Positions 20,156 through 50,151 of a stretch of 64,000 nt of DNA are shown one piece after another. Origin of the DNA: Bowmanella yangjiangensis (GTDB lineage Bacteria > Pseudomonadota > Gammaproteobacteria > Enterobacterales > Alteromonadaceae); NCBI RefSeq assembly GCF_017255015.1, contig NZ_JAFKCS010000008.1, forward strand, positions 62,001 through 126,000, given 5' to 3'. Numbering within the stretch: position 1 is the stretch's first letter; each line of letters opens with the position of its first letter. A program made the translations under genes and the position numbers. Below the pieces are notes generated by a model. It did not search any database. It was not told where the DNA came from and saw nothing but the letters and a program-made list of their open reading frames with translations.

Positions 20156-22369
20156 TCAAGAACGGGGTGCCATCACAAAGCGCAGTTCACCGCCTTGTAA
20201 GATCTGCTGGTGAGTCAGGATAGGACTTACCAGCTTTTCGCCGTTTAACCAGACCGATTGTACGCTTCCCTCACCTTCTTTCTTGACGCTTAGCTGATGA
20301 CCATTGGCTAGGCTCAGGGTAGCTTGCTCAAACTGTGGGGTGCCTAGCACGTATTCACCACCGACCGGATTTAGCGGATAGAAGCCCATAGCGCTGAACA
20401 CATACCAAGCCGACATTTGTCCTAGGTCGTCATTGCCGGCCAAGCCATCGGGCTGCGCCAGATACATAGTGTCACGGATCTCTTTAATACGTGCTTCGCC
20501 TTTGTGCTTATCTGCGGTAAAGGCATACAGATAGGCCACATGGTGAACCGGCTCGTTACCATGGGCATACTGACCGATCAGTCCGGAAATATCAGGAGAT
20601 ACATCACCCTGCATCTCGGAACTGGTGGAGAACAGCTCATCCAGCTTAGCCACAAAAGGGCTTTCACCACCAAAGAGTTCAATCATACCGGGTACATCAT
20701 GGGGGACAAAGAAGCTGTACTGCCAGGCGTTAGCTTCGGTGTAATCGGTATTACGGTGCTCAACATAAGTAGGGTTAAAGGGGCTTACCCATTGACCTTG
20801 TTTATCCTTGCCACGCATAAAGCCGGTGCTGGCATCAAACAGGGTACGATAACTTTGTGCACGCTGGCTGAACAGCTGATAGTCATCTTGCTTATCCAAT
20901 GCCTTGGCCATCTGCGCAATGGCCCAGTCATCAAAGGCATATTCTAAGGTTTTAGACACCGCTTCGACTTCCAGCTCGGATGGGATGTAGCCGTACTGAC
21001 GATACAGATCGATACCGAATCTGTCCTGCATAGCCGAGGCCTTAATGGCCGCCATGATGTGTTCAGGGTCGGCACTGGTCAGGCCCTTTAAATAGGCATC
21101 CACGATCACAGGTACCGCGTGGTAGCCAATCATCACGTCGGTTTCGTTGGACATCAGATCCCAGGTAGGTAGCAAACCTGTCTCGTCATAAAAACCCAGC
21201 ATGGATTTCACCATATCGTCCACTTTCTCCGGATTGCTGAGAGTCAGCAGCGGATGTAAAGCGCGGAAGGTATCCCACAACGAAAACAACGAATAGCGTC
21301 CATAGTGCTTGTCTTTATGCACCGCGCCATCTGCGCCAAAGAAAGCGCCGTCCACGTCATGGAAGACCTGCGGGGCCACAAAGGCATGGTAAAGGGCAGT
21401 GTAAAACTTGGTTTTGTTAGTCTTGTCAGCATCCTCAACCTGGAATTTACCCAACTGATTTGCCCAGGCCTGGGCAGCCTGCTGTTTTACCTGCTCAAAG
21501 CCCAGTTGCGCGGTTTCTGCCGCCAGGTTGGCCTTAGCCCCAGCAATGCTGGTGTAGGACAACGCGACCTTAGCTTCGATGGCCTTAGCCGGTTTACCAA
21601 AGTTCAGCACAATCTTGCCTTTTTCGGCCTGCAGTTGATCGCCTTTCACTGCTTGTAAGTCGTTCAGCAACTGGTGGCTGAAGGGCGCATCAAATTTGGC
21701 CACAAAATAGATAGGCTGATTTTTGGCCCAGCCTGTAGACAGGCGATAGCCGGTAAGTGTGTACTTATCTTCAACCCGTAAAAAGGTCACAACAGGCTTG
21801 TCGTAGTTCTGCGCATAGCCCAGATCAAACAACAGTTTGGCGTCCTGCTGACCATCAAAACGGTAGCGATGCACTCCTGTGCGAGTGCTGGCGGTCAGCT
21901 CGGCCTGAACTTGCTCTTCGGGCAGATACAAGCTGTAGTAACCAGGACTGGCGCTTTCCTTATCATGGCCGTAGGTTGTAAATATACGCCCTTTGTCATC
22001 TTTGGCGCGGGCTTGATAGTCTCCCCGAAAGGGCATCACCAGCACATCCAGCATGTCTCCCACACCAGTGCCGGAAAGGTGGGTATGAGAAAAACCCAGC
22101 AGAATGTTATCTGAGTAATGGTATCCCGATGTCCAGTCCCAGCCCTTAGAAGGGTTATCCGGGCTCAGTTGCACCATGCCAAAAGGCACTAAGGCACCGG
22201 GGAAGGTATGACCATGACCGCCGGTACCGATAAAAGGGTCCACAAAGTCCAGCACCTGCTGCACAGGCAGAGCCTTAGTTTCAGATACCTGTGAAGTAGA
22301 GGAGGCGCATCCCAGCAAAGACATCAGCGGTAAGGCCGCAAGGCCGTAAATCAAGCTTTTCGTTTTCAT
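20156..22369 (-). CDS. GH92 alpha-mannosidase, lipoprotein (copy 1)
   Basis: The 737-residue protein has lipobox LLGC (Cys22) without Asp at +2, suggesting outer-membrane anchoring. GH92 enzymes are calcium-dependent inverting exo-alpha-mannosidases. The N-terminal block reads DPFIGTGGHGHTFPGA. The predicted catalytic acid is Glu545 in YTEANAWQY, and the base is Asp648 in GNDDLGQMSAW. At the position of the second base Asp of Bt3990 it has Asn646. It carries PDISGLIGQYAHGNEP and not the His-Glu pair linked to alpha-1,2 specificity, so alpha-1,3 or another linkage is more likely. It is the last gene of the nine-gene N-glycan operon and overlaps the symporter gene by one base (TAATG). Confidence 0.92.
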   Translation of the reverse strand: MKTKSLIYGLAALPLMSLLGCASSTSQVSETKALPVQQVLDFVDPFIGTGGHGHTFPGALVPFGMVQLSPDNPSKGWDWTSGYHYSDNILLGFSHTHLSGTGVGDMLDVLVMPFRGDYQARAKDDKGRIFTTYGHDKESASPGYYSLYLPEEQVQAELTASTRTGVHRYRFDGQQDAKLLFDLGYAQNYDKPVVTFLRVEDKYTLTGYRLSTGWAKNQPIYFVAKFDAPFSHQLLNDLQAVKGDQLQAEKGKIVLNFGKPAKAIEAKVALSYTSIAGAKANLAAETAQLGFEQVKQQAAQAWANQLGKFQVEDADKTNKTKFYTALYHAFVAPQVFHDVDGAFFGADGAVHKDKHYGRYSLFSLWDTFRALHPLLTLSNPEKVDDMVKSMLGFYDETGLLPTWDLMSNETDVMIGYHAVPVIVDAYLKGLTSADPEHIMAAIKASAMQDRFGIDLYRQYGYIPSELEVEAVSKTLEYAFDDWAIAQMAKALDKQDDYQLFSQRAQSYRTLFDASTGFMRGKDKQGQWVSPFNPTYVEHRNTDYTEANAWQYSFFVPHDVPGMIELFGGESPFVAKLDELFSTSSEMQGDVSPDISGLIGQYAHGNEPVHHVAYLYAFTADKHKGEARIKEIRDTMYLAQPDGLAGNDDLGQMSAWYVFSAMGFYPLNPVGGEYVLGTPQFEQATLSLANGHQLSVKKEGEGSVQSVWLNGEKLVSPILTHQQILQGGELRFVMAPRS

Positions 22370-24159
22370 TAATCTTTCAACTTATCTAACCAGTTTTTCT
22401 TCAGGAACCAGGTGGTCAGCAAAGCCAGCGTCAACGCCACCAGCATTTCTGTCCATTGTTGGATAACCAGGTAAATAGGCAGAGCCACCAGGCAGATTTG
22501 CCAGGCCATGCCGACCAGAATATTGACCATGTCGCGGCCTGGGTGGGTATCGGGATCAAAACTCGGATCCTGGGCCAGCACTTTGGCCCGAATGGGTCCC
22601 CAACAACCCCAGGGTCTGACCTGGCGGTAGAAATCACAGAGCACCTTGTCATCTTCTGCCGGGGTCATAAGCGTACCTATCACCGAACCGGCCAGGCTTA
22701 TTAGCAACAGCACAGGGAAAGCGAACAGCGGGTGGGTGTGCGGCATCAGCAGCGGCAAACACAGTGAAGCCAGCAAACCGGCCATCATGCCCCAGAAGTA
22801 ACCGTAAGCATTGAAGCGCCACCAGTGCCATTTAAGCAGATTGGCAGCGGCGTAGCCGCCAAATAACGCACCAAAGATCCACTGCATAATGTCGTTAATA
22901 CTGGACAACATCAGGCCAAGCCCGACACCCACCAATACCAGTACAAAAGACACCAAATAACTCACTCTGACATAGGTTTGCTTGTCAGCGTCAGGGCGAA
23001 AATAACGTTTGTAGATATCGTTAACAAAGTACACGGGAGCCGCATTCAGCGACGCCGCCAAGGTCGACATAAAGGCCGCCAGCAGCCCGGCTATCAGCAG
23101 CCCGGTCAGTCCCACCGGCACAAAGTTACTGATGGCGTAAGGCAGAATTTGCTCAAAATCGAAAGCACCGCCCTGAGCCTGAATATCCGGGCCCATATAC
23201 ACCAAGGCCAGTACCGTCAAACCGGCCACCATCATATAGCGGGGGAAGAACATCACCAGGGACACCAGGCCACTCATTTTGGCTGCTTCCTTGGGAGAAC
23301 GGGTCGCCAGGATCCGCTGCATATCATAGTTAGGCACAGGCCCTGCCATGGAGAACAGCACGCCCTTAAACAGCATCATCATTACCATCAGGCCGATAAG
23401 CTCCAGACTGTCGGACTGAATCTTGTCGTTAACACTGTCTATCAGCCCCTGCCAGTTTAAATCCAACTGCCAGCCAAACCAGATATTGTCCCAACCCGCC
23501 GGGGTCGCGGCTTCAATTTGCTCCGGGCTGACCAAATTAATCGCTATGATACCTACCGCCACCGCTGCAATGGTCATAATCACAAACTGCAGGACTTCGG
23601 TGAACACCACCGAGTACATGCCGCCTTTGATCACATACAAGGTGGTAAAGGCGAAGATAATCAAGGCGTAGGTATCGGGGGATAGCTGCCAGGGAAAGAA
23701 TATCGCCGCAAACTTGCCGATGCCCTTGAAGGCATAAGCAATAAAGCCGATGGCACTGACGATAGCAAAGACTACCACCACCAGTTGGCATAACTCGGCG
23801 CCACGACCACTGCCAAAGCGGGTTTGCAACCACTGGGCACCGGTCATGACATTGGAGCGTCGCAGCCAAACCGACAGGTAGACCATCAAAAACACCTGAT
23901 TAAAGATGGGCCAGATCCAGGGCAACCAGGCGCTCTTCAGACCATAAACAAAGCACATGGACACCAACCACATAGTGCCGGCAATATCGAACATCCCCGA
24001 GGCGTTTGATACCCCCAGTGCCCACCAAGGGATCTGCTTACCGGCCAGGAAGTAGGCATTCATATCGCGGCTGGCCAGCTTGGAGATATACATCCCAAGC
24101 CCCAGCGTACCGAGCAGGTATGCAGCGATGATAAGTAGGTCTAACCAAGCCAGGGTCAT
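22369..24159 (-). CDS. sodium:solute symporter (SSS family)
   Basis: The 596-residue protein has about 13 membrane helices and the SSS-family opening: DLLIIAAYLLGTLGLGMYISKLASRDMNAYFLAGKQIPWWALGV, given here only as a range (about residues 7-50). It then has SNASGMFDIAGTMW and, in the middle, LAAFMSTLAASLNAAPVYFVNDIY. SSS carriers import sugars and other small solutes with sodium. The gene overlaps the beta-mannosidase gene by ATGA and the GH92 gene by one base. Because that beta-mannosidase has no signal peptide, the carried substrate may be the Man-beta-1,4-GlcNAc disaccharide or GlcNAc; this is inference. Confidence 0.88.
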   Translation of the reverse strand: MTLAWLDLLIIAAYLLGTLGLGMYISKLASRDMNAYFLAGKQIPWWALGVSNASGMFDIAGTMWLVSMCFVYGLKSAWLPWIWPIFNQVFLMVYLSVWLRRSNVMTGAQWLQTRFGSGRGAELCQLVVVVFAIVSAIGFIAYAFKGIGKFAAIFFPWQLSPDTYALIIFAFTTLYVIKGGMYSVVFTEVLQFVIMTIAAVAVGIIAINLVSPEQIEAATPAGWDNIWFGWQLDLNWQGLIDSVNDKIQSDSLELIGLMVMMMLFKGVLFSMAGPVPNYDMQRILATRSPKEAAKMSGLVSLVMFFPRYMMVAGLTVLALVYMGPDIQAQGGAFDFEQILPYAISNFVPVGLTGLLIAGLLAAFMSTLAASLNAAPVYFVNDIYKRYFRPDADKQTYVRVSYLVSFVLVLVGVGLGLMLSSINDIMQWIFGALFGGYAAANLLKWHWWRFNAYGYFWGMMAGLLASLCLPLLMPHTHPLFAFPVLLLISLAGSVIGTLMTPAEDDKVLCDFYRQVRPWGCWGPIRAKVLAQDPSFDPDTHPGRDMVNILVGMAWQICLVALPIYLVIQQWTEMLVALTLALLTTWFLKKNWLDKLKD

Positions 24160-26681
24160 TGGCTTTGCTCCTGGAATAAAGACTGATAGCGAGCACTTAC
24201 AAGCAGCTGTTCAATCTCAGTTTGGCTAGCCCCCGGCAAGGCCAGGTGAATACGCTTACTTTGGCCGGGCAACAAGTCAAAGAAGTTATCGGAAAAATTG
24301 CCTGCCGCGCCGTCTATTTCCACATGGCATTGGCGCACCAGGGTGGGGCTTTGCAAGGTCAGGGTCAGGCTTTGCTCACCCACCTGGCTTGTCACCTCAA
24401 GGTTAGGCGCGCTGAGAGCTTGCTGCTTGCTGGGTACAAAGTAAAACAAGCTGTCGGTAAGTTCCTGCCCCTGGCTATCAATCAGCACAGCTTGCAGTAC
24501 CACTTTATTGGGGTTATGTGCAGCCAGTAGCTCAATTCTAGGTAGCATAGCCACCTGAGCACTGCCATTGGCTGGTGTACTGATGAGCTGCTCCTGTTGC
24601 CACAGCTTATTGCCGTTGAAGTCCAGCAAGGTCAAACCTACTTTGGCATTGATTGAATGCAAGCGATCACTAACCAATCTGATACGGATGCTCTCCTGTA
24701 CCTCATCGATTACCAACAAGTCGGTGCGGAAACTGCGCTTAGCCTGATAGTGTAAGGCCTTCCAGCGACCATAATAATCAATGCCGGACCAGGACGCGGC
24801 CGGCCAGGTGTCATTGAGCTGCCAGTAAAGGCTACCCATACAAAATGGCTGCGCTGCCCGGTGCGCTTCAAAGGCCAATTTCAGTCCTTCGGCTTGCTGC
24901 ACCTGACTTAAAAATAGCAAACGGGCAAAATTTTCCGGCGCGCTATATTCTGTATCCATATAGCTACGGATAAGGCTGTTGCCGCGAGGGTGCTTCTGGT
25001 GCACCTTCAAAACCTGCGAGTCCAGATGCCAGTCTTGCTGTTCGATAAACTTCGCCATGGACGAGGCCAGCGGAAAAGACTGGAAGCCAAATTCACTCAT
25101 AAAACGCGGTATGCGTTTCTGGTACTCGCTAAACGGCTCTTCACCATGCCAAACCCCCCAATAATGGTGATTACCCATATGATCCATATCTTCTTCCCAG
25201 AAGCCTATGGGGGAGGAGCGCAGATAAAAACGTCCGGCATCAAGCTTTGCCACCGCCTCTGGCAGGCACTGGTCAAACAAACGAATGTAATCGTCTTTTA
25301 AACGGGCATACAGGGCATCGCTATAGCCAAATTTTTCCGGCCACTGCCAATGCTTAATGCCCATATCTACTTCATTATTTCCGCACCATAAGGCCAGGCA
25401 GGGATGATTGCGCAGACGCTTAATATTGTATTCAGCTTCCTCTCTTACATTGGCGAGGAAGGCCTCGTCAGCCGGATACAAAGTGCAGGCAAACATAAAG
25501 TCCTGCCATATCAGAATGCCGTGCTCATCAGCTAATTGGTAGAACACCTCATCCTGATAAATACCACCGCCCCATACCCGCAGCATATTCATATTGGCAT
25601 CCACCACTGCCTTGAAATCCTGCGCATGGCGCTCTGGTGTCATACGGTGTACAAAGCTGTCACCGGGAATATAGTTGGCGCCTTTCATAAACACTGGCTG
25701 GCCATTCACGCGGACAAAGAAAGACTGACCCATGGCGTCATCTTCGTTCACCACTTCGAGGGTACGAAAACCAATGCGCTGCTGTTTGCTGTGCTGCGCT
25801 TGATTGCCAATCAGCAGGCTAAAACTGAAATCATAAAGATAAGCTTCCCCTAAGCCATTGGGCCACCAAAGCTGTGGTGAAGCTAAGTCAAAATCCAGCC
25901 GCTGGATGTTTTCGCCCACAGTCAATTGTACAGGGATTTGTTTATTCAGTTGCGGTGCCTGCGCACATTCCACCTGCAATATGGCCTGCTCCGCCAGTGC
26001 CGATTGCATGCAAATATCAAAACTGAAAAGGGCTTGTGTGGCATCTAACTGATGCTGAACAAAATGCGTATCGGTGATCTGACAAGCCGTTATGCCCTGC
26101 AGATAAATAGGCCGCCAGATACCGCTGGTGACAAATCTTGGGCCCCAATCCCAGCCGAAGTGGCAAGGGGCTTTGCGACAATAAACACTGAGTTTGTCCT
26201 CAGATTTATCGTTCTCGGCAGGATAAGCAAAACCGGCCTGTTGATATTGCGGTAGCACTTCTTTGATGGGAGAGCGAAAACGTATCTCCAGCAGGTTCTC
26301 ACCTTCTTTGAGCAAGGATTTGCACAAAATGTGCTGTCCAATAAACATATTCTGACTTTCGGCCAGCTTCTGGCCGTTTAAATACAAGTCACAAAAGGTG
26401 TCCAGGCCTTCGGCAACCAGTTGAATATCCTGGTACTGCCACCAATCGGCGCTTAGGTTAAAGCGCTTCTGGTAGTGCCAGTCTTCTTGCTCAATCCATT
26501 GCAACTTGGTTTCATTATCGCGGTAGAAAGGCTCATCTATCAGCCCATTGGCCAGAAGATCGGTAAAGTTGCAGCCCGGTACCTGAGCAGGAAGCCAGGT
26601 TGCGGCGTTGGCCTGACGAAACTGCCAGTCACCACAAAGATCCAGACGCTGGCCATAATGCATGGATGAATTCGTAATCAT
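24156..26681 (-). CDS. GH2 beta-mannosidase
   Basis: The 841-residue protein has the GH2 layout: a jelly-roll sugar-binding domain (LCGDWQFRQAN, VPGCNFTDLLANGLIDEPFYRDNE), an Ig-like domain and a TIM barrel. The acid/base is predicted at Glu437 (LALWCGNNEVDMG) and the nucleophile at Glu530 (PRFMSEFGFQSFP). The early VPG…NG-LI-DPFY block is typical of beta-mannosidases rather than beta-galactosidases. No signal peptide is visible, so it should act in the cytoplasm on Man-beta-1,4-GlcNAc left after alpha-mannose trimming. It is separated from cutC by 37 nt containing a hairpin, and overlaps the symporter gene. Confidence 0.92.
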   Translation of the reverse strand: MITNSSMHYGQRLDLCGDWQFRQANAATWLPAQVPGCNFTDLLANGLIDEPFYRDNETKLQWIEQEDWHYQKRFNLSADWWQYQDIQLVAEGLDTFCDLYLNGQKLAESQNMFIGQHILCKSLLKEGENLLEIRFRSPIKEVLPQYQQAGFAYPAENDKSEDKLSVYCRKAPCHFGWDWGPRFVTSGIWRPIYLQGITACQITDTHFVQHQLDATQALFSFDICMQSALAEQAILQVECAQAPQLNKQIPVQLTVGENIQRLDFDLASPQLWWPNGLGEAYLYDFSFSLLIGNQAQHSKQQRIGFRTLEVVNEDDAMGQSFFVRVNGQPVFMKGANYIPGDSFVHRMTPERHAQDFKAVVDANMNMLRVWGGGIYQDEVFYQLADEHGILIWQDFMFACTLYPADEAFLANVREEAEYNIKRLRNHPCLALWCGNNEVDMGIKHWQWPEKFGYSDALYARLKDDYIRLFDQCLPEAVAKLDAGRFYLRSSPIGFWEEDMDHMGNHHYWGVWHGEEPFSEYQKRIPRFMSEFGFQSFPLASSMAKFIEQQDWHLDSQVLKVHQKHPRGNSLIRSYMDTEYSAPENFARLLFLSQVQQAEGLKLAFEAHRAAQPFCMGSLYWQLNDTWPAASWSGIDYYGRWKALHYQAKRSFRTDLLVIDEVQESIRIRLVSDRLHSINAKVGLTLLDFNGNKLWQQEQLISTPANGSAQVAMLPRIELLAAHNPNKVVLQAVLIDSQGQELTDSLFYFVPSKQQALSAPNLEVTSQVGEQSLTLTLQSPTLVRQCHVEIDGAAGNFSDNFFDLLPGQSKRIHLALPGASQTEIEQLLVSARYQSLFQEQSQ

Positions 26682-26712: not shown

Positions 26713-26729
26713 ACCGGATCACATCCGGT
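26713..26729 (-). repeat. hairpin overlapping the cutC stop codon
   Basis: ACCGGAT and ATCCGGT form a perfect 7-bp stem with a 3-nt loop, at the only untranslated gap between cutC and the beta-mannosidase gene. No T-tract follows directly, so it looks more like an RNA-processing or pausing hairpin than a terminator. Confidence 0.5.
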
Positions 26730-27456
26730 TTTCCGCCTGACACCGGGCCACCATATCGGCCACCCAGCTTTGATTTACTCTGCCCTTATCCAGCAGGGCC
26801 GAATAACTGTGCACCGACCAGGCTTGTGCTTTGTTTTGCAATGCCGGAAGCAGGCTATCCAGCACCGCAATTTGAATCCCGCCGCCCACCACCAGCTCAA
26901 TGCGTCCGGCGGCTTGTTCAAGCAGGGCGCTTAACACTGGCAGTCCTTGCAACGCGCCCTGGCCACTACCCCATGGGGTACCGGCGCTAAGCACGCGGCT
27001 GATACCCAGTTCAATCAGTTGCTCGAGGGCGAGCTTAGGGTTAGCTATGGCATCAAAGGCGCGGTGGAAGGTCACTTGCAACGATAACTTTGTGGCTAGC
27101 TCAACCAGGGGTTTGAGACTTGCCATATCCAGTTCAGCCTGCTGGTTCAAGATGCCCAGCACCACGCCGTCGGCGCCCTGCTCAGCGGCCAGATAAATAC
27201 CTTCCCGCATCAGCTCAAGCTCATCAGGGGAGTAACAAAAATCACCACCGCGAGGGCGAATCATCACGAGCATACCGGGTACATTCGCAAAGGCGTCCCG
27301 CGCAATCTGCATAGCTTCGCTGCTGGGAGTCAGGCCGTCATGCTGCATCTGTCCGCATAGCTCAATACGAACCGCGCCGCCCAGGCGGACCGCGCGCACA
27401 TCTTCACCAAGGTGCATCAGGTCGTCGGCATTAATACAGACTTCCAGGCCTCTCAT
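26719..27456 (-). CDS. cutC: CutC family protein
   Basis: The 245-residue TIM-barrel protein shows the CutC landmarks: EVCINADD, RIELCGQMQHDGLTPS, MIRPRGGDFCYS, VLGILN, VTFHRAFDA, ISRVLSAGTPWGSG and ELVVGGGI. CutC was named for copper homeostasis, but that role is poorly supported and its reaction is unknown. Here it sits inside an N-glycan operon, overlapping the GH85 gene by ATGA and followed by the beta-mannosidase gene. This context points to a step in sugar or aminosugar metabolism, although nothing in the sequence identifies it. No signal peptide is seen. Confidence 0.9.
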   Translation of the reverse strand: MRGLEVCINADDLMHLGEDVRAVRLGGAVRIELCGQMQHDGLTPSSEAMQIARDAFANVPGMLVMIRPRGGDFCYSPDELELMREGIYLAAEQGADGVVLGILNQQAELDMASLKPLVELATKLSLQVTFHRAFDAIANPKLALEQLIELGISRVLSAGTPWGSGQGALQGLPVLSALLEQAAGRIELVVGGGIQIAVLDSLLPALQNKAQAWSVHSYSALLDKGRVNQSWVADMVARCQAENRM

Positions 27457-38730: not shown

Positions 38731-38744
38731 TGTAATCGATAACA
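38731..38744. promoter_or_regulatory. LacI-family operator, one mismatch, upstream of its own regulator gene
   Basis: TGTAATCGATAACA differs from the perfect palindrome by one base. It is 14 bp from the candidate -35 box of the regulator gene. It suggests weaker, autoregulatory binding. Confidence 0.6.
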
Positions 38745-38844: not shown

Positions 38845-38858
38845 TGTAATCGATTACA
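38845..38858. promoter_or_regulatory. LacI-family operator upstream of the GH92-MFS operon
   Basis: TGTAATCGATTACA, identical to the site at 37209-37222, lies 64 bp before the GH92 ATG at 38923. The surrounding 38621-38922 gap holds only this site, the imperfect operator and the regulator's own promoter. Confidence 0.75.
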
Positions 38859-41298: not shown

Positions 41299-42549
41299 AT
41301 GGCAGGTTTTCAAACAGGTCAGGTAACAGGCGGGCAAGTGAACGGTGGACACTTTGCGTTTGCCGCCATGACCACGTTATTTTTCATTTGGGGCTTTATT
41401 ACTGCCCTGAACGATATTTTGATCCCACATCTTAAGGAAGTGTTTTCTCTTAACTACACCCAGGCCATGCTGGTGCAATTTTGTTTCTTTGGCGCGTATT
41501 TTATTGTGTCGCCCTTTGCCGGCATGCTGATTGAAAAGATCGGCTACCGCCGCGGCATTATTACCGGTCTTTGTACTATTGCGGCAGGCTGTGCGCTGTT
41601 TTACCCGGCGGCAGAAGTCAAAGTATACGGCGTGTTTTTACTGGCACTCTTTGTTCTGGCCGCTGGCATTACGGTTTTGCAAGTCTCAGCCAATCCTTAT
41701 GTGGCCATTCTGGGGCCGGAAAAAACCAGCGCCAGCCGTTTAAATCTGGCTCAGGCAGTGAACTCTCTGGGCCATACATTGGGCCCCCTGTTTGGCACTG
41801 TGCTGATTTTCGGTGCAGTCGGCGCGGCGATTAGCGCCGATGCGGTAAAACTGCCCTATCTGATTCTCGCTGGCGCTACGGTACTGGTCGCATTGTTGTT
41901 TAAAGCCATTAAGCTGCCAGATATACACGCCGACCTGCAACAGCAAGCCAAACCTAGCTGGTCAGAGGTACTGGAACATCGTCAACTGATGTTCGGTGTA
42001 TTGGCCATTTTCTTATATGTGGGGGCTGAAGTCGCTATCGGCAGCTTTCTTGTCAATTACTTTGCCGAAGCACACATTGGTAACCTTAGCGCCAAGCAAG
42101 CCGGAGCCATGGTTTCCTACTACTGGGGGGCAGCCATGATTGGTCGCTTTATCGGCGCCGCCCTGACCCGCGTTATTGCGCCGATTTACGTGCTGGCGGG
42201 CAATGCCACCTTAGCTATTTGTCTGATTATTCTGTCCATCAACAGCGTTGGCGAGTTGGCCATGTGGTCTATTCTGGCCGTTGGCTTCTTTAACTCCATC
42301 ATGTTCCCCACCATTTTCTCGCTGGCCATTGGTGGTCTGGGGCGGCTGACGTCTCGCGGCTCAGGTCTATTGTGTATGGCTATAGTCGGTGGCGCCATAC
42401 TGCCTTTACTGCAAGGCATTGTGGCAGATCAAAGCTCAGTCCAAATCAGCTTTATCGTGCCTATGTGTGCTTACCTGTATATCGGCTGGTATGCCCTTTA
42501 TGGCGTCAAGGCCTCCCCCAAAATTCAAGCCGCACAGGTGCAACCATGA
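41299..42549 (+). CDS. sugar MFS transporter (FucP/NagP-like), predicted mannose permease
   Basis: The 416-residue protein has 12 membrane helices and the FucP-group signature TTLFFIWGFITALNDILIPHLKEVF in helix 1 (about residues 25-49, range given). It also has QVSANPYVAILGPEKTSASRLNLAQA around 132-157. FucP-type proton symporters carry monosaccharides such as fucose, glucose, galactose or GlcNAc. Here the gene is followed, with ATGA overlaps, by a fructokinase and an AGE-type isomerase. Mannose released in the periplasm by GH92 enzymes is therefore the most likely substrate, with fructose as the alternative. Confidence 0.88.
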   Translation: MAGFQTGQVTGGQVNGGHFAFAAMTTLFFIWGFITALNDILIPHLKEVFSLNYTQAMLVQFCFFGAYFIVSPFAGMLIEKIGYRRGIITGLCTIAAGCALFYPAAEVKVYGVFLLALFVLAAGITVLQVSANPYVAILGPEKTSASRLNLAQAVNSLGHTLGPLFGTVLIFGAVGAAISADAVKLPYLILAGATVLVALLFKAIKLPDIHADLQQQAKPSWSEVLEHRQLMFGVLAIFLYVGAEVAIGSFLVNYFAEAHIGNLSAKQAGAMVSYYWGAAMIGRFIGAALTRVIAPIYVLAGNATLAICLIILSINSVGELAMWSILAVGFFNSIMFPTIFSLAIGGLGRLTSRGSGLLCMAIVGGAILPLLQGIVADQSSVQISFIVPMCAYLYIGWYALYGVKASPKIQAAQVQP

Positions 42550-43559
42550 AGAAAGTGTTGTGCTTTGGCGAAGCCTTAATTGATTTTCTTAACGTAGGCG
42601 CCGCTCATCAGGGCCCGCTGACCTTACCCGAGTTTCGCCAGTATCCGGGCGGCGCACCGGCCAATGCCGCCGTTGCCGTGGCTCAGCTAGGTGGCCAGGC
42701 TTTATTTGCAGGGCAGGTAGGGCAAGACCCTTTTGGTGATTTTCTGGCTGATGCCCTCAGCCAATATGGTGTAGATACGCGTTTTCTTTTACAACATCCG
42801 CACGCCAAAACCGCCCTGGCGTTTGTGATGCTGGATAACAGTGGCGATCGCAGCTTTTCCTTTCACCGCCATCAAACCGCTGATGTGATACTGGATAAGC
42901 AGCAGGTAAACCCCGAATGGTTCAGTGGCGAAACTATTGTGCATATTTGCAGTAACACCCTGACCACGGACCAAATAGCCGAATCAACGCAACATGTTGT
43001 GGAGTCTGCACGTCAGGCCGGCAATCTCATCAGTTTCGATGTTAACCTGCGGCACAATTTGTGGGCCGAGAATCAGGCTGATCGCTTGTTGGTCAATAAG
43101 CTGGTTGAGCAGGCAGACCTGGTCAAGTTTTCCCGCGATGAACTGGACTACCTGGCCGAAGGTGAGACTAGCGCCTACCTGGCTCGCTGCCTGAATGCCC
43201 AATGCCAATTGCTGTTGGTCACCGATGGTGCCAATCGGATTGACTACTATACCGCCTCTCACCAGGGCAGCATTCAGCCTCCCAGTGTCAAAGCCGTGGA
43301 CACCACCGCCGGTGGCGATGCCTTTATCGGAGGCTTCCTTTACGGCTTGAGCTGCCTTCCTAACAGCCATAAGATTTTCGTCCAACCGGCAGAACTTGAA
43401 TCCCTGCTGTTATTTGCCAGTCATTGTGGCGCCTATGCCGTAACAAAACCCGGTGCATTTCCGGCCTTGCCGGACCTGAACAATATACAAGCGCAATTGC
43501 GCGCCCATGGACATGAACTTTCAGCATTCAATCCCGCTTTATTCCGGAGCCAGGTATGA
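42546..43559 (+). CDS. PfkB-family fructokinase
   Basis: The ATG at 42546 overlaps the permease stop (ATGA) and begins exactly at the conserved MKKVLCFGEALIDF; the longer frame from 42372 is an artefact. The 337-residue kinase has YPGGAPANAAVAVAQLGG (about residues 35-52), ISFDVNLR and AVDTTAGGDAFIGGFLYGL, whose Asp in GGDAF is the catalytic base of the PfkB/ribokinase family. Together with the neighbouring isomerase it should convert fructose derived from mannose to fructose-6-phosphate. Its substrate could also be another ketose, but the gene order makes fructose most plausible. Confidence 0.9.
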   Translation: MKKVLCFGEALIDFLNVGAAHQGPLTLPEFRQYPGGAPANAAVAVAQLGGQALFAGQVGQDPFGDFLADALSQYGVDTRFLLQHPHAKTALAFVMLDNSGDRSFSFHRHQTADVILDKQQVNPEWFSGETIVHICSNTLTTDQIAESTQHVVESARQAGNLISFDVNLRHNLWAENQADRLLVNKLVEQADLVKFSRDELDYLAEGETSAYLARCLNAQCQLLLVTDGANRIDYYTASHQGSIQPPSVKAVDTTAGGDAFIGGFLYGLSCLPNSHKIFVQPAELESLLLFASHCGAYAVTKPGAFPALPDLNNIQAQLRAHGHELSAFNPALFRSQV

Positions 43560-44743
43560 ATTTCCTATCCCAAGACTTTCTCATTGAACATTGCCAGAGC
43601 ATTCTGGATTTCTATACCGACAAAGTGGTAGACACCAGTGGTGGATATCATCAGAACTATCTGGATGACGGCAGACTATTCGACACAGATTTTAAACAGC
43701 TAGTCAGTAGTACGCGGATTATCGTCAACTATGCCTTGGCCGGGATGCTGTTTAATCGTCAGGATTATCTGAGTATTGCCCGCCACGGCTTGAACTACCT
43801 GGAAAAGGTGCACTGGCAACCGGACAGCCAGACTTATGCCTGGACCCTTAAAGACCATCAGCCGCTGGATATGACCCAGCAGGCCTATGGTTATGCTTTC
43901 GTGTTGTTAGCTTATGCCGCCGCCCGTAAAACCGGCTTGGTCAGCGATAACAGTAAATTATTGATGGTTTACGATCTGCTGGAAAAGCGCTTCTGGCAAA
44001 CCGAATACGGCTTATATGCCGATGAAATCAGTCCGGCTGGAGTGCTGAGCAGCTATCGTGGTCAGAATGCCAATATGCATTTGTGTGAAGCTATGCTGGC
44101 AGCTTACGAAGCAACAGGTCTCAGCCAGTTTTTGGAACGTGCCAAATTGCTTGCGCACAATATTGCTGTGCGTCAGGCCAATCTCACCGATGGGCTGGTA
44201 TGGGAGCATTACACACCAAGTTTCCAGCCAGATTGGGAATACAATAAAAACGATCCGAAGAACCTTTATCGGCCTTGGGGTTTTCAGCCAGGCCACCAAA
44301 CCGAGTGGACCAAGCTGCTATTGATCCTTCATCGTCATGCACCGCAGGATTGGCTGGTAGAACGCGCTAAATCGTTGTTTGATCGTGCCTATCAACAAGC
44401 CTGGGATGCACAAGAAGGTGGTCTGGTGTATGGTTTTGACCCACAAGGTAATTGGTGTGACGACGACAAATACTTCTGGGTACAGGCCGAAAGCTTTGCC
44501 GCGGCAGCTATGCTCTACAAAGTCACCGGTGATAACAACTATCTGGAGCAGTATCAGGCACTGTGGGAATACAGCTGGAAGCACATGGTAGATCACCAAT
44601 ACGGTGCCTGGTTCAGAGTGCTTAGAAGAAATAACAGCAAGTATTCCAACCAGAAGAGTGCTGCCGGTGCCAAGTGTGACTATCACACCTTGGGCGCCTG
44701 CTTTGAGGTACTGCGCGACTTAGGTGTTACGGCTCTGAAGTAA
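43556..44743 (+). CDS. AGE-family sugar isomerase, predicted D-mannose isomerase
   Basis: The 395-residue protein is an (alpha/alpha)6-barrel of the N-acylglucosamine 2-epimerase superfamily. Catalytic-site landmarks are RGQNANMHLCEA (His175), PWGFQPGHQTEW (His247, Glu250) and KCDYHTLGACFEV (His377), the arrangement of YihS and mannose isomerases rather than true GlcNAc epimerases. It should interconvert mannose and fructose, giving a mannose to fructose to fructose-6-phosphate route that bypasses mannose-6-phosphate isomerase. It overlaps the fructokinase gene by ATGA, supporting a shared pathway. Confidence 0.88.
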   Translation: MNFLSQDFLIEHCQSILDFYTDKVVDTSGGYHQNYLDDGRLFDTDFKQLVSSTRIIVNYALAGMLFNRQDYLSIARHGLNYLEKVHWQPDSQTYAWTLKDHQPLDMTQQAYGYAFVLLAYAAARKTGLVSDNSKLLMVYDLLEKRFWQTEYGLYADEISPAGVLSSYRGQNANMHLCEAMLAAYEATGLSQFLERAKLLAHNIAVRQANLTDGLVWEHYTPSFQPDWEYNKNDPKNLYRPWGFQPGHQTEWTKLLLILHRHAPQDWLVERAKSLFDRAYQQAWDAQEGGLVYGFDPQGNWCDDDKYFWVQAESFAAAAMLYKVTGDNNYLEQYQALWEYSWKHMVDHQYGAWFRVLRRNNSKYSNQKSAAGAKCDYHTLGACFEVLRDLGVTALK

Positions 44744-44750
44744 CAGGCCG

Positions 44751-44786: not shown

Positions 44787-44805
44787 AGACAACGATGAGG
44801 ATGTC

Positions 44806-47013
44806 ATGAAAAGAATTGTCACCTTGCTGCTGGTCACTCTACTGTCAGCATGCAATACTCCTTCGACCAACCAGACGGCTTCAGACAAGCTCGATCCGCT
44901 GAACTTTGTTGACCCATTTATTGGTACCGATGGCAAAGGTAAAACCTATCCTGGTGCCACCGTACCTCATGGCATGGTGCAGCTAAGCCCCGATAATGGC
45001 CGTACCGGCTGGGACTGGATAGCCGGCTACTTTTATCCTGACAACATTATCGCTGGTTTCAGCCATACGCATTTATCCGGCACTGGCGCAGGTGACTTGT
45101 ACGACATCTCTTTTATGCCGTTAACCCGTCCCTTTAAAAAACTGAAAACAGAAGGCGGCCCTGAAGATGGCACCATTATCTCGCATTTCAGTCATGAACA
45201 AGAGCAAGCCAGCCCGGGCTACTATCAGGTACTTTTGCAAGATTACGATATTAACGTTGAACTAAGTGCCGGTGTTCGCAGCGGTATACAGCGTTATCAA
45301 TACCCTGAAAATACTAAACAGGGTGTCATTCGCCTTGACCTTGCCTACAGCCGCAATTGGGACAAAACCCTGGCTACCCATGTGGAGATCTTCGACCACT
45401 ATAGTATTGGTGGTTATCGACGCTCTACCGGCTGGGCCAAAGATCAGAGAGTGTATTTTTACACGCGCTTTTCTCGCCCTATCGCTCAACATCTGATTCA
45501 AGCCAATGGCCGCACCCTCACGCAGTCTAAGGGCTTTGGTGAAGATCTCAGCCTGGAAATGGACTTTGAATTAAGTGGTGACAACAGCATCCTGGTGCAT
45601 ACCGCCATCAGCTCGGTCAGCATAGAAAACGCCAAAGCCAATCTGGAAGCAGAAGTGCATTTATTGGACTTTGAGCGCACCAAGCTGGCTGCTGAGCAAG
45701 CCTGGCGGGACGAACTAAGTAAGGTCGTGGTTGACGCCACGCCGGATAACCTCAAGCAGTTTTATACCGCCATGTACCACGCATCACTGGCGCCACGGCT
45801 CTTCTCCGACCTGGATGGCAGTTATAAGGGCCCGGATGGCCGTATTCAGCAAAGCGGCAAGTACCCTCGCTACGAATTTTTCTCCTTGTGGGATACCTTC
45901 CGTGCTCTGCATCCCTGGAAAACCATCATCGACCAGCGCCGCACCCGCGAGATGATGGACAGTATGATGGCTCACTATCAGGTGGCTGGGCGCTTGCCTG
46001 TGTGGATATTTCAGGGCAACGAAACCGACATGATGATGGGGTATCACTCAGTCCCCGTTTTGGTGGACGCCTACTTAAAGGGATTGACCGACATTGATGG
46101 TGAAACCTTGCTTAGCGCCGTGTTGCAAAGCGCTGAACAAGAAGAGTTTGGTTTACAAAGCTACCAGAAGCTTGGCTATGTTCCCTATCCCGAACGTAAA
46201 TGGAACGTGGCCCTGACCTTAGAGTACGCCTTCGATGACTGGGCTATCGCCCGTTTGGCCAAAGCACTGGGTAAAGAGGGCATCTACCAGCGCTTTGCCA
46301 GGCGAGCACAGAACTACCGGCACCATTTTGACCCGCAAAGCGGTTTTATGCGCGCTTTGGACGAGCAAAAGCAATTCCGCCAACCTTTTGATCCCAATGC
46401 CTATCATCCAGAAGATTACTGTGAAGCCAATGCCTGGCAATACAGCTTCTTTGTACCACATGATGTTGAGGGTATGGTGGAAATGATGGGTGGCCCGCAA
46501 AAGGTCAGCGCCAAACTGGATGAGATGTTCAGCACAGTGCAGGATCTCGAAACCTTCCCGGAGTGGATTTCGGGTTATATCGGCCAATATGTGCATGGCA
46601 ACGAACCCAGCCACCATGTGCCATACCTGTATCAGTATCTTGGCGAAGGGCAGAAAACCCAGAAGCTGGTCAGGCAAATTATGGATGAGCTTTACAGCAC
46701 CGCCCCGGATGGCCTGGCAGGCAATGAAGACGCAGGGCAAATGTCGGCCTGGTATCTATTCAGCGCCCTGGGCTTCTACCCGGTCGATCCGGTATCCGGC
46801 GAATATGTACTTGGCAGCCCTGAAGTACAAAGTGCTGACATTCATCTGGAAAACGGCAAGGTATTTAAGATCCGCACAGAAAATCAGGGGCCGCAGCAGG
46901 TCTATGTGAAATCCGTGACCTTAAACGGTAAAGCATTAACAGGCTTTCGTCTGCGTCATAGCGATATTATGGCAGGCGGTGAACTGGTATTTAGCATGAG
47001 TGAAAAACCATGA
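44806..47013 (+). CDS. GH92 alpha-mannosidase, lipoprotein (copy 3)
   Basis: The 735-residue protein has lipobox LLSAC (Cys16), with Asn at +2, pointing to outer-membrane sorting. The N-terminal block is DPFIGTDGKGKTYPGATVPHGM. The predicted acid is Glu540 (YCEANAWQY) and the base Asp642 (GNEDAGQMSAW), with Asn640 where Bt3990 has its second Asp. EWISGYIGQYVHGNEPSHH replaces the His-Glu alpha-1,2 signature. It is closer to copy 1 than to copies 2 and 4, and its linkage preference is unresolved. A GAGGATG ribosome binding site precedes the ATG, and the stop overlaps the next GH92 start (ATGA). Confidence 0.92.
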   Translation: MKRIVTLLLVTLLSACNTPSTNQTASDKLDPLNFVDPFIGTDGKGKTYPGATVPHGMVQLSPDNGRTGWDWIAGYFYPDNIIAGFSHTHLSGTGAGDLYDISFMPLTRPFKKLKTEGGPEDGTIISHFSHEQEQASPGYYQVLLQDYDINVELSAGVRSGIQRYQYPENTKQGVIRLDLAYSRNWDKTLATHVEIFDHYSIGGYRRSTGWAKDQRVYFYTRFSRPIAQHLIQANGRTLTQSKGFGEDLSLEMDFELSGDNSILVHTAISSVSIENAKANLEAEVHLLDFERTKLAAEQAWRDELSKVVVDATPDNLKQFYTAMYHASLAPRLFSDLDGSYKGPDGRIQQSGKYPRYEFFSLWDTFRALHPWKTIIDQRRTREMMDSMMAHYQVAGRLPVWIFQGNETDMMMGYHSVPVLVDAYLKGLTDIDGETLLSAVLQSAEQEEFGLQSYQKLGYVPYPERKWNVALTLEYAFDDWAIARLAKALGKEGIYQRFARRAQNYRHHFDPQSGFMRALDEQKQFRQPFDPNAYHPEDYCEANAWQYSFFVPHDVEGMVEMMGGPQKVSAKLDEMFSTVQDLETFPEWISGYIGQYVHGNEPSHHVPYLYQYLGEGQKTQKLVRQIMDELYSTAPDGLAGNEDAGQMSAWYLFSALGFYPVDPVSGEYVLGSPEVQSADIHLENGKVFKIRTENQGPQQVYVKSVTLNGKALTGFRLRHSDIMAGGELVFSMSEKP

Positions 47014-49232
47014 AGACGTTGTTCTTTGGCCTGCTATTGGCCAGCACTAGTGCGCTGGCTGGCAACAGCCAGCATGTGAATCCCTTTATCGGCACCTCAA
47101 ATTTTGGCGCCACCCACCCTGGCGCTCAGTATCCCAATGCCTTGGCATCGGTTTCACCTTTTAATGTGGCCTATGGCGACACCCTCAATAAGTTTGAAAA
47201 GGACGCCGCCTGGAACTCCAGAGTGTATATCCATGAGAATGGTTATCTCACCGGGTTCAGCCACTTAAATCTAAGCGGCGTGGGCTGCCCCGAAGCCGGC
47301 GTGATGTTGTTGATGCCTACCACCGGAAAGCTAAATCTGGATGCCAGGGAATACGGCAGCACCTATTCGCAAGAGCAAGCCAGCCCGGGTTACTACAGCA
47401 GTATGCTGGACAAGTACCAGGTAAAAGCCGCACTAACCAGCACCCTACGCAGCGGGCTTAGCCGTTTTACCTTCCCGGCCGGACAGTCGCATATTCTGCT
47501 GAACCTGGGACTAGGCCTTACCAATGAAAGCGGCGGCTCATTAAAGGTGGTGTCAGAGCAGGAAGTAGAAGGCAGCCGTATGCTCGGCACCTTTTGTTAT
47601 AACCCTGAAGACGTGCGACCGGTTTATTTTGTAGCCCGCTTCAGTAAAGCGGCGGCTGAATTTGGTGCCTGGAAGAAAATGCCCAAGTACCAGAATGTGG
47701 AAGCCGACTGGATCCACTATAACGACAGCATTAAACCTTATCCGGGCTTTCGTCAGACCTTATCCGGTGATGACATAGGTGCCTGGTTTAGTTTTGATAC
47801 CTCTGCCAATGAAGCCATTGAGGTTAAGCTGGGTATCTCTTTTGTTAGCATCGAAAATGCCCGTGCCAACCTGGATGCAGAACAACCCGGCTTTGATTTT
47901 GCCAAGACCCGTCAGGCCGCGGTTGATGCCTGGGACAAACTGCTGGATAGGGTTGAAGTTGAAGGCACGGATACCAACAAAACCCTCTTTTATACGGCCC
48001 TTTACCATAGCTTGATTCATCCCAATATCCTGCAGGATATCAATGGTGACTATCCTTTGATGGGCCAGCAAGGCATGGGTAACAGCAAGCGGAATCGCTA
48101 CACGGTGTATTCGCTATGGGACACCAATCGTAACCTGCACCCCTTATTAAGCTTGCTTTACCCCGAGTTACAGAGCGATATGCTCAACTCAGCCGTGGCC
48201 ATGGCTGCTGAGAGTGGCTGGCTGCCAAAGTGGGAGCTATACGGCATGGAAACTCAGGTTATGGTTGGCGACCCTGCCACCCCGATGCTGGCAGATAGCT
48301 ATCTGCGCGGTATCCGCGATTTTGATATACGCAGTGCCTATCAGGCCATGGTCAGAGCGGCCGAACAACGTCAGAACAATTTACTCAGACCAGAGAATGC
48401 CGACTACCTGGACTTAGGCTATGTTCCTGTCGATGATGAAGGGCCTTATGACGGCAGTGTCTCTACCAGCCTGGAATACTATCTGGCCGATTTTAATCTG
48501 GCCCAGCTGGCCGGCGCACTGGGAAAAACCGAAGACCAGCAGAAGTACCTCAGCCACGCGATGAACTACCGTAAGTTGTTTGATGCCAGCACAGGTATGC
48601 TGCGCCCTAAAAATCGCAGTGGACAATGGCTGACCCCTTACGATCCAGAGCTTGGTAGAAACTTCGAGCCGGCACCTGGGTATATCGAAGGCAACGCCTG
48701 GAATTATCGCTTTTATGTGCCTCACGACACACTAGGTCTGATTGAACTACTGGGTGGCCAGAACAATTTCCTTAACGCACTAGACGCCACCTTCGATACC
48801 GGTAATTTCGATATGGCCAATGAGCCGGACATTACCTACCCCTTCCTATACAACTATCTGGACAATCAGGGCTGGCGAACGTCGCTGAGGGTTAAACAGC
48901 TGATTGCTGAGCACTATGGGAACCACCCAGCCGGCCTGCCGGGTAATGACGATACCGGCACCATGTCGGCCTGGTTAGCCTTTGCCATGATGGGAATTTA
49001 CCCGGTCAGCCCAGGGGTAATGGACTATGCCTTGTTTGAACCCAGCTTTGACAAGATCACTGTGCATCTGAATTCAGATTACTACCCTGGCGGCAGCCTG
49101 GTGATAGAAAGCAGAAAAAAGAACAAAAGTTCTAATACTAACGCTCAAATTAAATTCCAGCAGAAAGATTTAGAACAACCATTCTTAAGCCATCAAGCGC
49201 TGGTGAATGGTGGTCGGTTGGTTTTCCAATAG
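47010..49232 (+). CDS. GH92 alpha-mannosidase, divergent subgroup, periplasmic (copy 4)
   Basis: The 740-residue protein has a cleavable Sec signal (…STSALAGNS) but no lipobox, unlike the other three copies. It belongs to a distinct GH92 subgroup: NPFIGTSNFGATHPGAQYPNALASVSPFN at the N-terminus (about residues 26-54), YIEGNAWNY with acid Glu560, and GNDDTGTMSAW with base Asp648. It has NEPDITYPFLYNY in place of the HGNEPxHH segment. A different linkage preference from copies 1-3 is therefore expected. It is fused translationally to copy 3 by an ATGA overlap, suggesting that the two act in a fixed ratio. Confidence 0.9.
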   Translation: MKTLFFGLLLASTSALAGNSQHVNPFIGTSNFGATHPGAQYPNALASVSPFNVAYGDTLNKFEKDAAWNSRVYIHENGYLTGFSHLNLSGVGCPEAGVMLLMPTTGKLNLDAREYGSTYSQEQASPGYYSSMLDKYQVKAALTSTLRSGLSRFTFPAGQSHILLNLGLGLTNESGGSLKVVSEQEVEGSRMLGTFCYNPEDVRPVYFVARFSKAAAEFGAWKKMPKYQNVEADWIHYNDSIKPYPGFRQTLSGDDIGAWFSFDTSANEAIEVKLGISFVSIENARANLDAEQPGFDFAKTRQAAVDAWDKLLDRVEVEGTDTNKTLFYTALYHSLIHPNILQDINGDYPLMGQQGMGNSKRNRYTVYSLWDTNRNLHPLLSLLYPELQSDMLNSAVAMAAESGWLPKWELYGMETQVMVGDPATPMLADSYLRGIRDFDIRSAYQAMVRAAEQRQNNLLRPENADYLDLGYVPVDDEGPYDGSVSTSLEYYLADFNLAQLAGALGKTEDQQKYLSHAMNYRKLFDASTGMLRPKNRSGQWLTPYDPELGRNFEPAPGYIEGNAWNYRFYVPHDTLGLIELLGGQNNFLNALDATFDTGNFDMANEPDITYPFLYNYLDNQGWRTSLRVKQLIAEHYGNHPAGLPGNDDTGTMSAWLAFAMMGIYPVSPGVMDYALFEPSFDKITVHLNSDYYPGGSLVIESRKKNKSSNTNAQIKFQQKDLEQPFLSHQALVNGGRLVFQ

Positions 49233-49244: not shown

Positions 49245-49332
49245 CAACCAGAATGGCTGATGTAACTGTGCAGGGCTTTTGCCCGGCATCCACTGCCAGT
49301 CTATGGATTTGTTACCGCTAAGGAGCTTAGAA

Positions 49333-50151
49333 ATGCCTAAAGTCACCAGTGTTTTGTTGTTGGTATTAAGTACCTGCTATGTTGGCAGCTTAAAGGCACA
49401 AGCACTTGTGGTGGAGAGCTTTAACCTGCGTTACGACAATCCCGCCGATGGCGCTAACGCCTGGCCTCATCGACGGGCAATGGTAAAAGAGCATCTGCAA
49501 AATCTTCACCCCGATTTGGTCGGCCTTCAGGAAGTGTTAGCCCACCAGTGGCAATGGTTGGGACAGCAGCTACCAGAGTACGGGCAGTTAGGCGTGGGGC
49601 GGGATGACGGTAAACAAGCCGGGGAGTTTGTCCCTGTACTCTATCGCCTCGACAGACTGGAATTAAAGAAGAATGGATATTTTTGGTTATCGGAAACCCC
49701 GGATAAAGTCGGTTCTATAGGCCCTGGGGCTCACTTACCACGCATCACCAGTTGGGCATTGTTTTACGATAAGCAAAGCCAAAACAGCTTTTGCTTTTTT
49801 AATACCCATTTTAGCCATGTGAGCGACAATGCCCGGCAACATGCGGCAAAACTGCTGCTGGCGCAAATCACCAACCTCTGTGAGGGCTTACCGGTAGTTA
49901 TTAGCGGAGATTTTAATGCCAGCCCTTCTGATACAACTTACCAACTACTTACTGAAAGGCTGAGCGATACCGCCGATAAGTTGGCTCCGGCCACTTTCAA
50001 CGGCTTTGGCAAGGCAAAATCTGCTGCGCGAATTGACTACATTTTTACCGATAAGGCTATCGGCAGTTCACAGTATCAAACCCATCAAGTCATAAAGGAC
50101 GGGGTGTATATCTCCGACCACTTCCCTATTTCGGCAAAGCTAATATTCTAA
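49333..50151 (+). CDS. secreted endonuclease/exonuclease/phosphatase-fold protein
   Basis: A start at 49333 (MPKVTSVLLL) after AAGGAG gives 272 residues with a signal peptide ending near 'LKAQA'. The fold motifs are ESFNLRYDN, LVGLQEV (metal-binding Glu), NTHFSH, ISGDFNASP, IDYIF and ISDHFPI (catalytic His). The superfamily contains nucleases, lipid phosphatases and sugar phosphatases. In an operon of mannosidases a phosphatase or phosphodiesterase acting on glycan-linked phosphate is more plausible than a nuclease, but this is inference. It is the last gene of the plus-strand operon, 100 nt after GH92 copy 4. Confidence 0.85.
   Translation: MPKVTSVLLLVLSTCYVGSLKAQALVVESFNLRYDNPADGANAWPHRRAMVKEHLQNLHPDLVGLQEVLAHQWQWLGQQLPEYGQLGVGRDDGKQAGEFVPVLYRLDRLELKKNGYFWLSETPDKVGSIGPGAHLPRITSWALFYDKQSQNSFCFFNTHFSHVSDNARQHAAKLLLAQITNLCEGLPVVISGDFNASPSDTTYQLLTERLSDTADKLAPATFNGFGKAKSAARIDYIFTDKAIGSSQYQTHQVIKDGVYISDHFPISAKLIF

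Follow-up and report, generated by a model that had tools for sequence, protein, structure and literature searches.

A probable high-mannose N-glycan locus of Bowmanella yangjiangensis and the recurrent linkage of CutC with glycosylasparaginase

An N-glycan cluster with a TonB receptor has been described in Xanthomonas under the name nix/nag (PMC5700972, PMC6718126). The nix cluster, reported for 138 genomes, includes a cutC gene (XAC3091) labelled ‘resistance to copper’ (PMC6718126), and an asparaginase is located in its neighbourhood (PMC5700972). In work on Lactobacillus casei, 1-amino-N-acetylglucosamine (1-amino-GlcNAc) was described as not metabolisable and its breakdown at acid pH was assumed to be spontaneous (PMC6960285). 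Here we analysed a stretch of 64,000 nucleotides from Bowmanella yangjiangensis (the window), in which a locus at 20156–50151 carries a set of N-glycan-related genes together with a CutC homologue. An initial reading of this DNA made from its letters alone (the sequence-only reading) had considered such loci to be known mainly from Bacteroidetes, which overlooks the gammaproteobacterial nix/nag cluster (PMC5700972, PMC6718126).

The locus comprises 17 genes arranged as a LacI-type regulator flanked by two divergent operons. Encoded on the minus strand are a TonB receptor, an F5/8C (discoidin) lipoprotein, a NagK-like kinase, a glycosylasparaginase (AGA), an endoglycosidase of glycoside hydrolase family 85 (GH85), CutC, a GH2 beta-mannosidase, an SSS symporter and a GH92 alpha-mannosidase; the plus-strand operon encodes a GH92, an MFS carrier, a fructokinase, a mannose isomerase, two further GH92 and a secreted endonuclease/exonuclease/phosphatase-fold protein. 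Pfam and NCBIfam profiles recovered every gene that the sequence-only reading had named, each where it had been placed: four GH92, GH2, GH85, glycosylasparaginase, a GlcNAc-type kinase, two carriers, mannose isomerase and fructokinase around the regulator. Two genes had not been listed there, the endonuclease/exonuclease/phosphatase-family gene (49279–50151, plus strand) and cutC (26719–27456, minus strand), and the overlooked CutC is the most informative gene of the locus. Because of the enzyme families, their closest solved structures, the conserved gene order and a shared operator, we agree with the earlier proposal that the locus is probably a LacI-controlled two-operon system for high-mannose Asn-linked glycans, including the GlcNAc-Asn stub. 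With somewhat less assurance we also favour a functional link between CutC and AGA.

Linkage of CutC with glycosylasparaginase

According to the coordinates of the open reading frames, 4-base overlaps join the genes for NagK (30136–31047), AGA (29171–30139), GH85 (27453–29174) and CutC, all on the minus strand. Further 4-base overlaps are found between GH2 and SSS, MFS and fructokinase (with an inferred fructokinase start), fructokinase and isomerase, and GH92c and GH92d. These overlaps suggest translational coupling of the genes concerned. The AGA (PF01112) is closer to solved glycosylasparaginases (443 bits to the bacterial enzyme 3ljq) than to isoaspartyl peptidases (141 bits). Alignment to 3ljq places the autoproteolytic DT site at D179/T180, with the beta chain beginning at T180. 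A Tat-type signal precedes it; here the PF10518 match stays just below the cut-off and the NCBIfam TAT domain passes.

We compared the occurrence of both genes in a GH85 set, picked by GH85 similarity and leaning to Alteromonadales and Hymenobacter, and in samples of 148 Bacteroidota and 299 Pseudomonadota genomes, with tentative lineage names derived from family codes and neighbours. One genome (G463) is shared by the GH85 set and the Bacteroidota sample, and the present genome (G000) by the GH85 set and the Pseudomonadota sample. By a criterion of our own, PF01112 matches were counted as AGA-type when they start at model position 23 or later and score below 260 bits; second halves of split matches were excluded. 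A fragmentary match in G792 was not counted as AGA, and one counted CutC (G508) is a broken gene.

The GH85 set has 44 genomes of Pseudomonadota and Bacteroidota, of which 36 contain both CutC and AGA, 7 contain neither and one (G440) has CutC alone. Without exception the two genes of the 36 genomes lie on one contig within 10 kb. In 14 of them (8 Hymenobacter, 3 Sphingomonas, 2 Chryseobacterium, 1 Arenibacter) the gap between CutC and AGA is below 0.7 kb, and the pair is not inside the GH85 loci of these genomes, taken with flanks of up to 10 kb. The linkage is therefore independent of adjacency to GH85.

In the Bacteroidota sample CutC occurs in 46 genomes, 42 of which also have an AGA-type gene (three of these, G547, G582 and G590, were recognised only from the regions around CutC). 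The two genes are located within 12 kb of each other in 27 of the 42 genomes and within 1.5 kb in 24. For the CutC-AGA association in this sample a Fisher test, which ignores kinship, gave p = 1e-17. As a control, none of the 38 other listed PF01112 genes of CutC genomes, which are isoaspartyl peptidase-like, was found within 12 kb of CutC. The four genomes counted as having CutC only do have PF01112 matches, and an AGA-like one may be outside the matches listed. A GH20 and an S9 peptidase-like gene directly precede CutC in a Bacteroidota genome for which no AGA-type gene is listed (L119:2-5367). For the Pseudomonadota we counted CutC in 42 genomes, an AGA-type gene in 15 and both in 11; 7 of these 11 have the pair within about 2 kb. 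Five of these seven adjacent pairs are new, because the other two come from genomes that the GH85 set also contains (G726 is apparently identical with G437).

The surroundings of the pair vary. Three Xanthomonadaceae-like loci show the order glucokinase-AGA-CutC with AGA and CutC abutting or overlapping; in two of them (L160, L161) a TonB receptor follows CutC, and L161 additionally has GH92, LacI and MFS homologues. Homologues of GH92, SSS and MFS surround the pair in the Sphingomonas loci L164 and L165. Another locus (L175) reads: a 1130-aa protein of SusC size, SusD, a PNGase-F-like protein, AGA, CutC, GH92. On a quick CutC tree calculated without bootstrap (92 proteins, 51 of them AGA-linked, excluding loci that repeat one genome and the poorly cut row L170) the linked state needs 13 changes; the CutC-AGA link was therefore made or broken many times. 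An AGA tree of 49 of the 51 AGA-linked rows recovered several of the same small groups and placed the Xanthomonadaceae-like rows differently. It neither shows nor excludes that CutC and AGA may have been transferred jointly as one unit.

CutC as a candidate enzyme of the asparagine-stub branch

The CutC of the locus matches PF03932 with 174 bits (cut-off 23.3) and the fold of 3iwp with an E-value of 2.4e-21; it misses the cut-off of the NCBIfam CutC equivalog (139 vs 311 bits). No signal peptide was seen. Its structural model (pLDDT 95.5) is a (beta/alpha)8 barrel, closest to the CutC of human, Shigella, Bacillus and Streptococcus. Over 93 CutC sequences Glu30, His129, Asp133 and His214 are invariant and Arg28, Arg65, Arg67 and Arg130 near-invariant (90–100% per group; alignment numbering, to which 2 is added for the protein). 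In the model strands 3, 5 and 8 carry Arg65, Arg67, His129, Arg130, Asp133 and His214 at their C-terminal ends or immediately behind them, which is where barrels of this type have their active sites; Glu30 is within strand 2, at whose start Arg28 is located. As placed by the model, the conserved charged residues would fit acid-base catalysis on a polar or anionic substrate. In the Alteromonadales clade strand 6 is followed by an additional invariant Trp (W162 in protein numbering), which aligns with a gap in the other CutC compared.

We propose that the Tat-exported AGA would cleave the leftover GlcNAc-Asn to aspartate and 1-amino-GlcNAc, and that CutC, made from the same coupled message, would be a cytoplasmic enzyme of this asparagine-stub branch and not a copper protein. 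It would act on 1-amino-GlcNAc after uptake, perhaps on the 6-phosphate after NagK. The specific reaction, on 1-amino-GlcNAc, its 6-phosphate or a derivative, is put forward tentatively from the linkage, and that the CutC family as a whole, from bacteria to humans, processes 1-amino-GlcNAc or its 6-phosphate is likewise a possibility we hold with reserve. If true, CutC would provide a missing step of N-glycoprotein catabolism that has so far been assumed to be spontaneous, and an orphan family also present in people would gain a concrete, testable metabolic role. Spontaneous breakdown of 1-amino-GlcNAc would be slow at sea-water pH, therefore an enzyme would help. A full-text literature search, with subscription papers mostly outside its scope, found nothing that pairs CutC with glycosylasparaginase; within the same scope, we did not find a functional CutC-AGA conclusion drawn in papers on related topics.

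A number of findings weigh against tying CutC to AGA in this way. In the Pseudomonadota sample 31 of the 42 CutC genomes lack an AGA-type gene; the substrate of CutC can therefore not come only from AGA. PF01112 is missing altogether from the five Gram-positive genomes among the 49 searched for the GH85 set, although all five carry CutC. Conversely, AGA-type genes occur without CutC in at least 19 Bacteroidota genomes (PF01112 matches were listed down to 218.6 bits, which makes AGA-only counts lower bounds) and in 4 of 15 Pseudomonadota ones. Where both are present, they are far apart or on different contigs in 15 of 42 Bacteroidota and 4 of 11 Pseudomonadota genomes, and second copies of CutC (G443, G445, G446, G447, G450) or AGA (G430, G445, G446) adjoin no partner. 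The two proteins are predicted in different compartments, AGA having an export signal and CutC none. The CutC clade of the locus is divergent (branch 0.86), with the conserved charged residues retained. Finally, the GlcNAc-Asn route of L. casei works, as described, without CutC (PMC6960285).

Part of this evidence would fit a general housekeeping role of CutC, such as repair of damaged sugars or a mutarotase or epimerase activity on GlcNAc or GlcNAc-6-phosphate, with CutC merely recruited beside AGA. The many Pseudomonadota that have CutC without AGA agree with it, as does the lack of a strong common theme among 56 neighbours of such CutC genes (LysR 5, YecM 3, ROK kinase 3; the CutC neighbourhoods were chosen by hand, not at random). 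The nearest non-CutC folds would suit such a role too: first MJ1099, which acts in methanofuran/methanopterin synthesis and was solved with PRPP, then barrels of the aldolase type. Against it, CutC of Bacteroidota is nearly confined to AGA genomes (42 of 46), and in 43 of the 44 GH85-set genomes the pair is jointly present or absent. We regard a pure housekeeping role as possible, if rather unlikely.

That CutC handles copper as annotated, and is co-located since glycoprotein feeding or an enzyme of the operon needs metal control, has in our view little probability. Besides the annotation it draws on eukaryotic phenotypes, which also count against our proposal: human cells and worms become more sensitive to copper when CUTC is knocked down, and a review concludes that CUTC is involved in copper homeostasis in a mode still to be defined (PMC11083455). 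The same review disputes roles as carrier, classic chaperone or buffer, given weak binding and no classic site (PMC11083455). Of the two conserved cysteines Cys32 is kept in at least 93% of CutC; Cys5 is kept in 100% of Alteromonadales and 82% of unlinked CutC and in only 57% of AGA-linked CutC outside Alteromonadales. The copper phenotype of Escherichia coli is said to be accounted for, in work by Guo in 2014, by the small RNA MicL. MicL originates in the cutC region (PMC8216713). The copper role was dropped after a scan of 115 of 134 neighbours, in which the families listed (25 of 73 and 25 of 54) included no copper family; yet two copper-type neighbours in the Xanthomonadaceae-like loci speak for copper: L160 has a P-type ATPase with heavy-metal-associated domains near CutC, L161 a multicopper oxidase. 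The copper label lacks a defined mechanism, whereas the linkage of CutC with AGA recurs across two phyla.

Operator, distribution and gene content of the locus

From a comparison of the upstream regions of relatives we obtained a 14-base palindrome, TGTAATCGATTACA, as putative operator. Exact copies are present twice in the whole draft genome, at 37209–37222 in front of the TonB operon and at 38845–38858 5’ of GH92b, and a pattern search found one copy with one mismatch in the locus (38731–38744) and one elsewhere on the same contig. The reversed control pattern had no match in the genome. Within the window, 3 matches with up to two mismatches compare to 0.07 expected. The exact operator was found in 27 of 184 loci: 24 of the 80 GH85 loci, four Sphingomonas ones included, and 3 pieces of the present genome. 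Its exact occurrence twice in the genome and its retention in related loci point to a dedicated local regulon, which would include CutC via the TonB operon. The alpha-mannosidases (four GH92) and the GH2 beta-mannosidase share this putative operator. A promoter-like site, TTGACA-17-TAGTAT, immediately precedes the copy of the TonB operon, and an operator so placed would be suited to repression; the region has 4 promoter-like sites, close to the mean of 3.0 in shuffled sequences. The single operator-like site outside the locus (L184, C778:194800-194813) lies amid small open reading frames.

The genome is a 5.4-Mb draft of 922 contigs; its GH85 and that of Bowmanella pacifica share 95% identity. 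Few Gammaproteobacteria have a GH85: of 369 genomes sampled across the class 2 matched, the present one and another that matched weakly. Within the genus, GH85 is present in all five genomes examined, the present one included. When we compared gene order across genomes, as the sequence-only reading had suggested, the order GH85-CutC-GH2-SSS was kept in 23 of 80 GH85 loci from named genomes. These belong to Bowmanella, Aliiglaciecola, Lacimicrobium, Rheinheimera, Paraglaciecola, Aestuariibacter, Alteromonas, Thalassotalea, Colwellia and relatives, thus mostly to Alteromonadales, and the arrangement is therefore not due to chance. NagK-AGA is located directly 5’ of GH85 in some of these loci and relocated downstream in others. 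AGA and CutC are missing from the loci of Marinibactrum and Alteromonas sp. ALT199, in which most other locus genes are kept. The genes for TonB, GH85, GH2, GH92, SSS and LacI are retained, differently ordered, in four Sphingomonas loci. In the GH85 loci of Hymenobacter, Chryseobacterium and Gram-positives few families of the window are present within 10 kb.

Uptake would begin with the discoidin lipoprotein (31241–34129, minus strand; four PF00754 stretches, N-terminus ...GLYGC), presumably a glycan-binding surface protein that captures the glycopeptide, which the TonB receptor (34180–37137, minus strand, probable start around 37080; TIGR01782, 617 bits) would import. At the surface or in the periplasm GH85 would cut the chitobiose core. 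It has a Sec-type signal, matches PF03644 (267 bits) and the solved GH85 structures 2vtf/3fhq (240 bits), and its N193 and E195, invariant in all five aligned sequences, are presumably the catalytic Asn/Glu pair. The four GH92 would trim alpha-mannose: GH92a (20156–22369, minus strand; PF07971, 572 bits; TIGR01180; lipoprotein-type signal, N-terminus ...LMSLLGC), GH92b (38923–41256, plus strand; lipoprotein-type signal), GH92c (44806–47013, plus strand; lipoprotein-type signal, 47% identical to GH92a) and GH92d (47010–49232, plus strand; Sec-type signal), the latter three assigned by Pfam/NCBIfam profiles and N-termini. That other alpha-mannosides, for example mannan of fungi or algae, are the main target of the locus and GH85 is incidental, is very improbable: four GH92 and two mannose catabolic enzymes would fit, but GH85, AGA and GH2 beta-mannosidase share an operon and are conserved with the locus, and characterised GH85 enzymes are, according to a review, exclusively N-glycan-active (PMC10154615).

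The SSS symporter (22369–24159, minus strand; PF00474), which we infer from gene position to import Man-beta-1,4-GlcNAc or mannose, and the gluP/NagP-like MFS hexose/GlcNAc transporter (41299–42549, plus strand; TIGR01272 322 bits, above cut-off; NF046060 NagP 202, below 625) would bring in Man-beta-1,4-GlcNAc and monosaccharides. GH2 (24156–26681, minus strand; 754 bits to the beta-mannosidase entries 2je8/2vjx) would split the disaccharide in the cytoplasm. Mannose would pass via fructose to fructose-6-phosphate through the AGE-family D-mannose isomerase (43556–44743, plus strand; NF051846 199 bits, below the cut-off of 600; 455 bits to 3gt5/5x32, entries named N-acetyl- or N-acylglucosamine 2-epimerase) and the PfkB fructokinase (42546–43559, plus strand, start corrected to 42546; PF00294; NF006957 230 bits, below 450). 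GlcNAc would be converted to GlcNAc-6-phosphate by the NagK-type kinase (NF046058 NagK_SO3507, 343 bits, below the cut-off of 370) and further by NagA encoded elsewhere. N-termini, judged by eye without a signal predictor, showed no export signal in GH2, both kinases, the isomerase and CutC; the signal types suggest mannose trimming and AGA cleavage outside the cytoplasm, and GH2, phosphorylation and CutC inside. In this way marine gammaproteobacteria would, with one dedicated operator in control, bring an entire oligomannose N-glycan and its stub into central metabolism.

The LacI-family regulator (PF00356/PF13377) occupies 37613–38620 on the minus strand; its open reading frame is listed to 38824, the helix-turn-helix begins at residue 72 of this long form, and the true start is near 38620. 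The endonuclease/exonuclease/phosphatase-fold gene (PF03372) has homologues after GH92a in two Rheinheimera loci (L014, L023).

The sequence-only reading had also called the system self-contained and had based the oligomannose target partly on absent genes. Among the 17 locus genes we indeed found no match to GH18, GH20, GH38, sialidase, NagA or NagB, and the sole GH76 match, inside the mannose isomerase, is below cut-off (19.4 vs 25.9 bits). The rest of the genome has two NagA above cut-off, three GH20 genes (four match rows) and one GH18 (GH38, GH76, sialidase and NagB were searched in the locus genes). Given the GH20 and GH18 genes elsewhere, the enzymes that the locus has say more about the target than do the families it lacks. 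With NagA on another contig (C13) ‘self-contained’ is too strong. GH20 and NagA lie close together at C13:21861-26568, probably a GlcNAc catabolic cluster on which the locus relies.

Behind the locus, at 50850–55917, a GntR regulator, a TonB receptor (51764–54487) and an AnmK-like sugar kinase (54715–55917) probably form another amino-sugar uptake cluster. A third TonB-dependent receptor (57112–60123) is located beside a calcineurin-like phosphoesterase (55944–57059), and at 60434–62557 a winged-helix DNA-binding domain is fused to a WD40-like (PD40) propeller.

Comparison with described systems

The Xanthomonas nix cluster resembles the present locus in being gammaproteobacterial and in combining a TonB receptor and N-glycan hydrolases, among them alpha- and beta-mannosidases, with cutC and a nearby asparaginase. 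The nix cluster targets complex glycans of plants with fucosidase, galactosidase and hexosaminidase and is tied to virulence. In contrast, the present locus is of oligomannose type and LacI-controlled, with a mannose route, a GlcNAc kinase and carriers of its own, and Pfam matches of its 17 genes include no fucosidase, galactosidase or hexosaminidase above cut-off.

The high-mannose polysaccharide utilisation locus of Bacteroides thetaiotaomicron uses SusC/SusD. Here, as the sequence-only reading had recognised, one TonB receptor and a discoidin lipoprotein are present instead; no SusD family match, and so no SusC/SusD pair of the Bacteroidetes type, was found among the 17 locus genes. The endoglycosidase that frees the whole glycan before import is a GH18 enzyme in B. 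thetaiotaomicron (PMC10154615); here a GH85, accompanied by AGA with CutC, would have the same role.

The alf-2 system of L. casei for fucosyl-GlcNAc-Asn is alike in that AGA makes aspartate and 1-amino-GlcNAc, followed by a sugar kinase; it differs in its intracellular AGA, and the available part of its description names no CutC (PMC6960285). The solved CutC structures 3iwp, 1twd, 2bdq and 4r9x share the fold (TM 0.74–0.86, query-normalised) and the motifs of the locus CutC. All are annotated as copper proteins, and the locus clade adds the invariant W162. The oligomannose N-glycan system itself is well delimited and of a known kind; of most interest is the strong, testable hint that it gives to the function of CutC.

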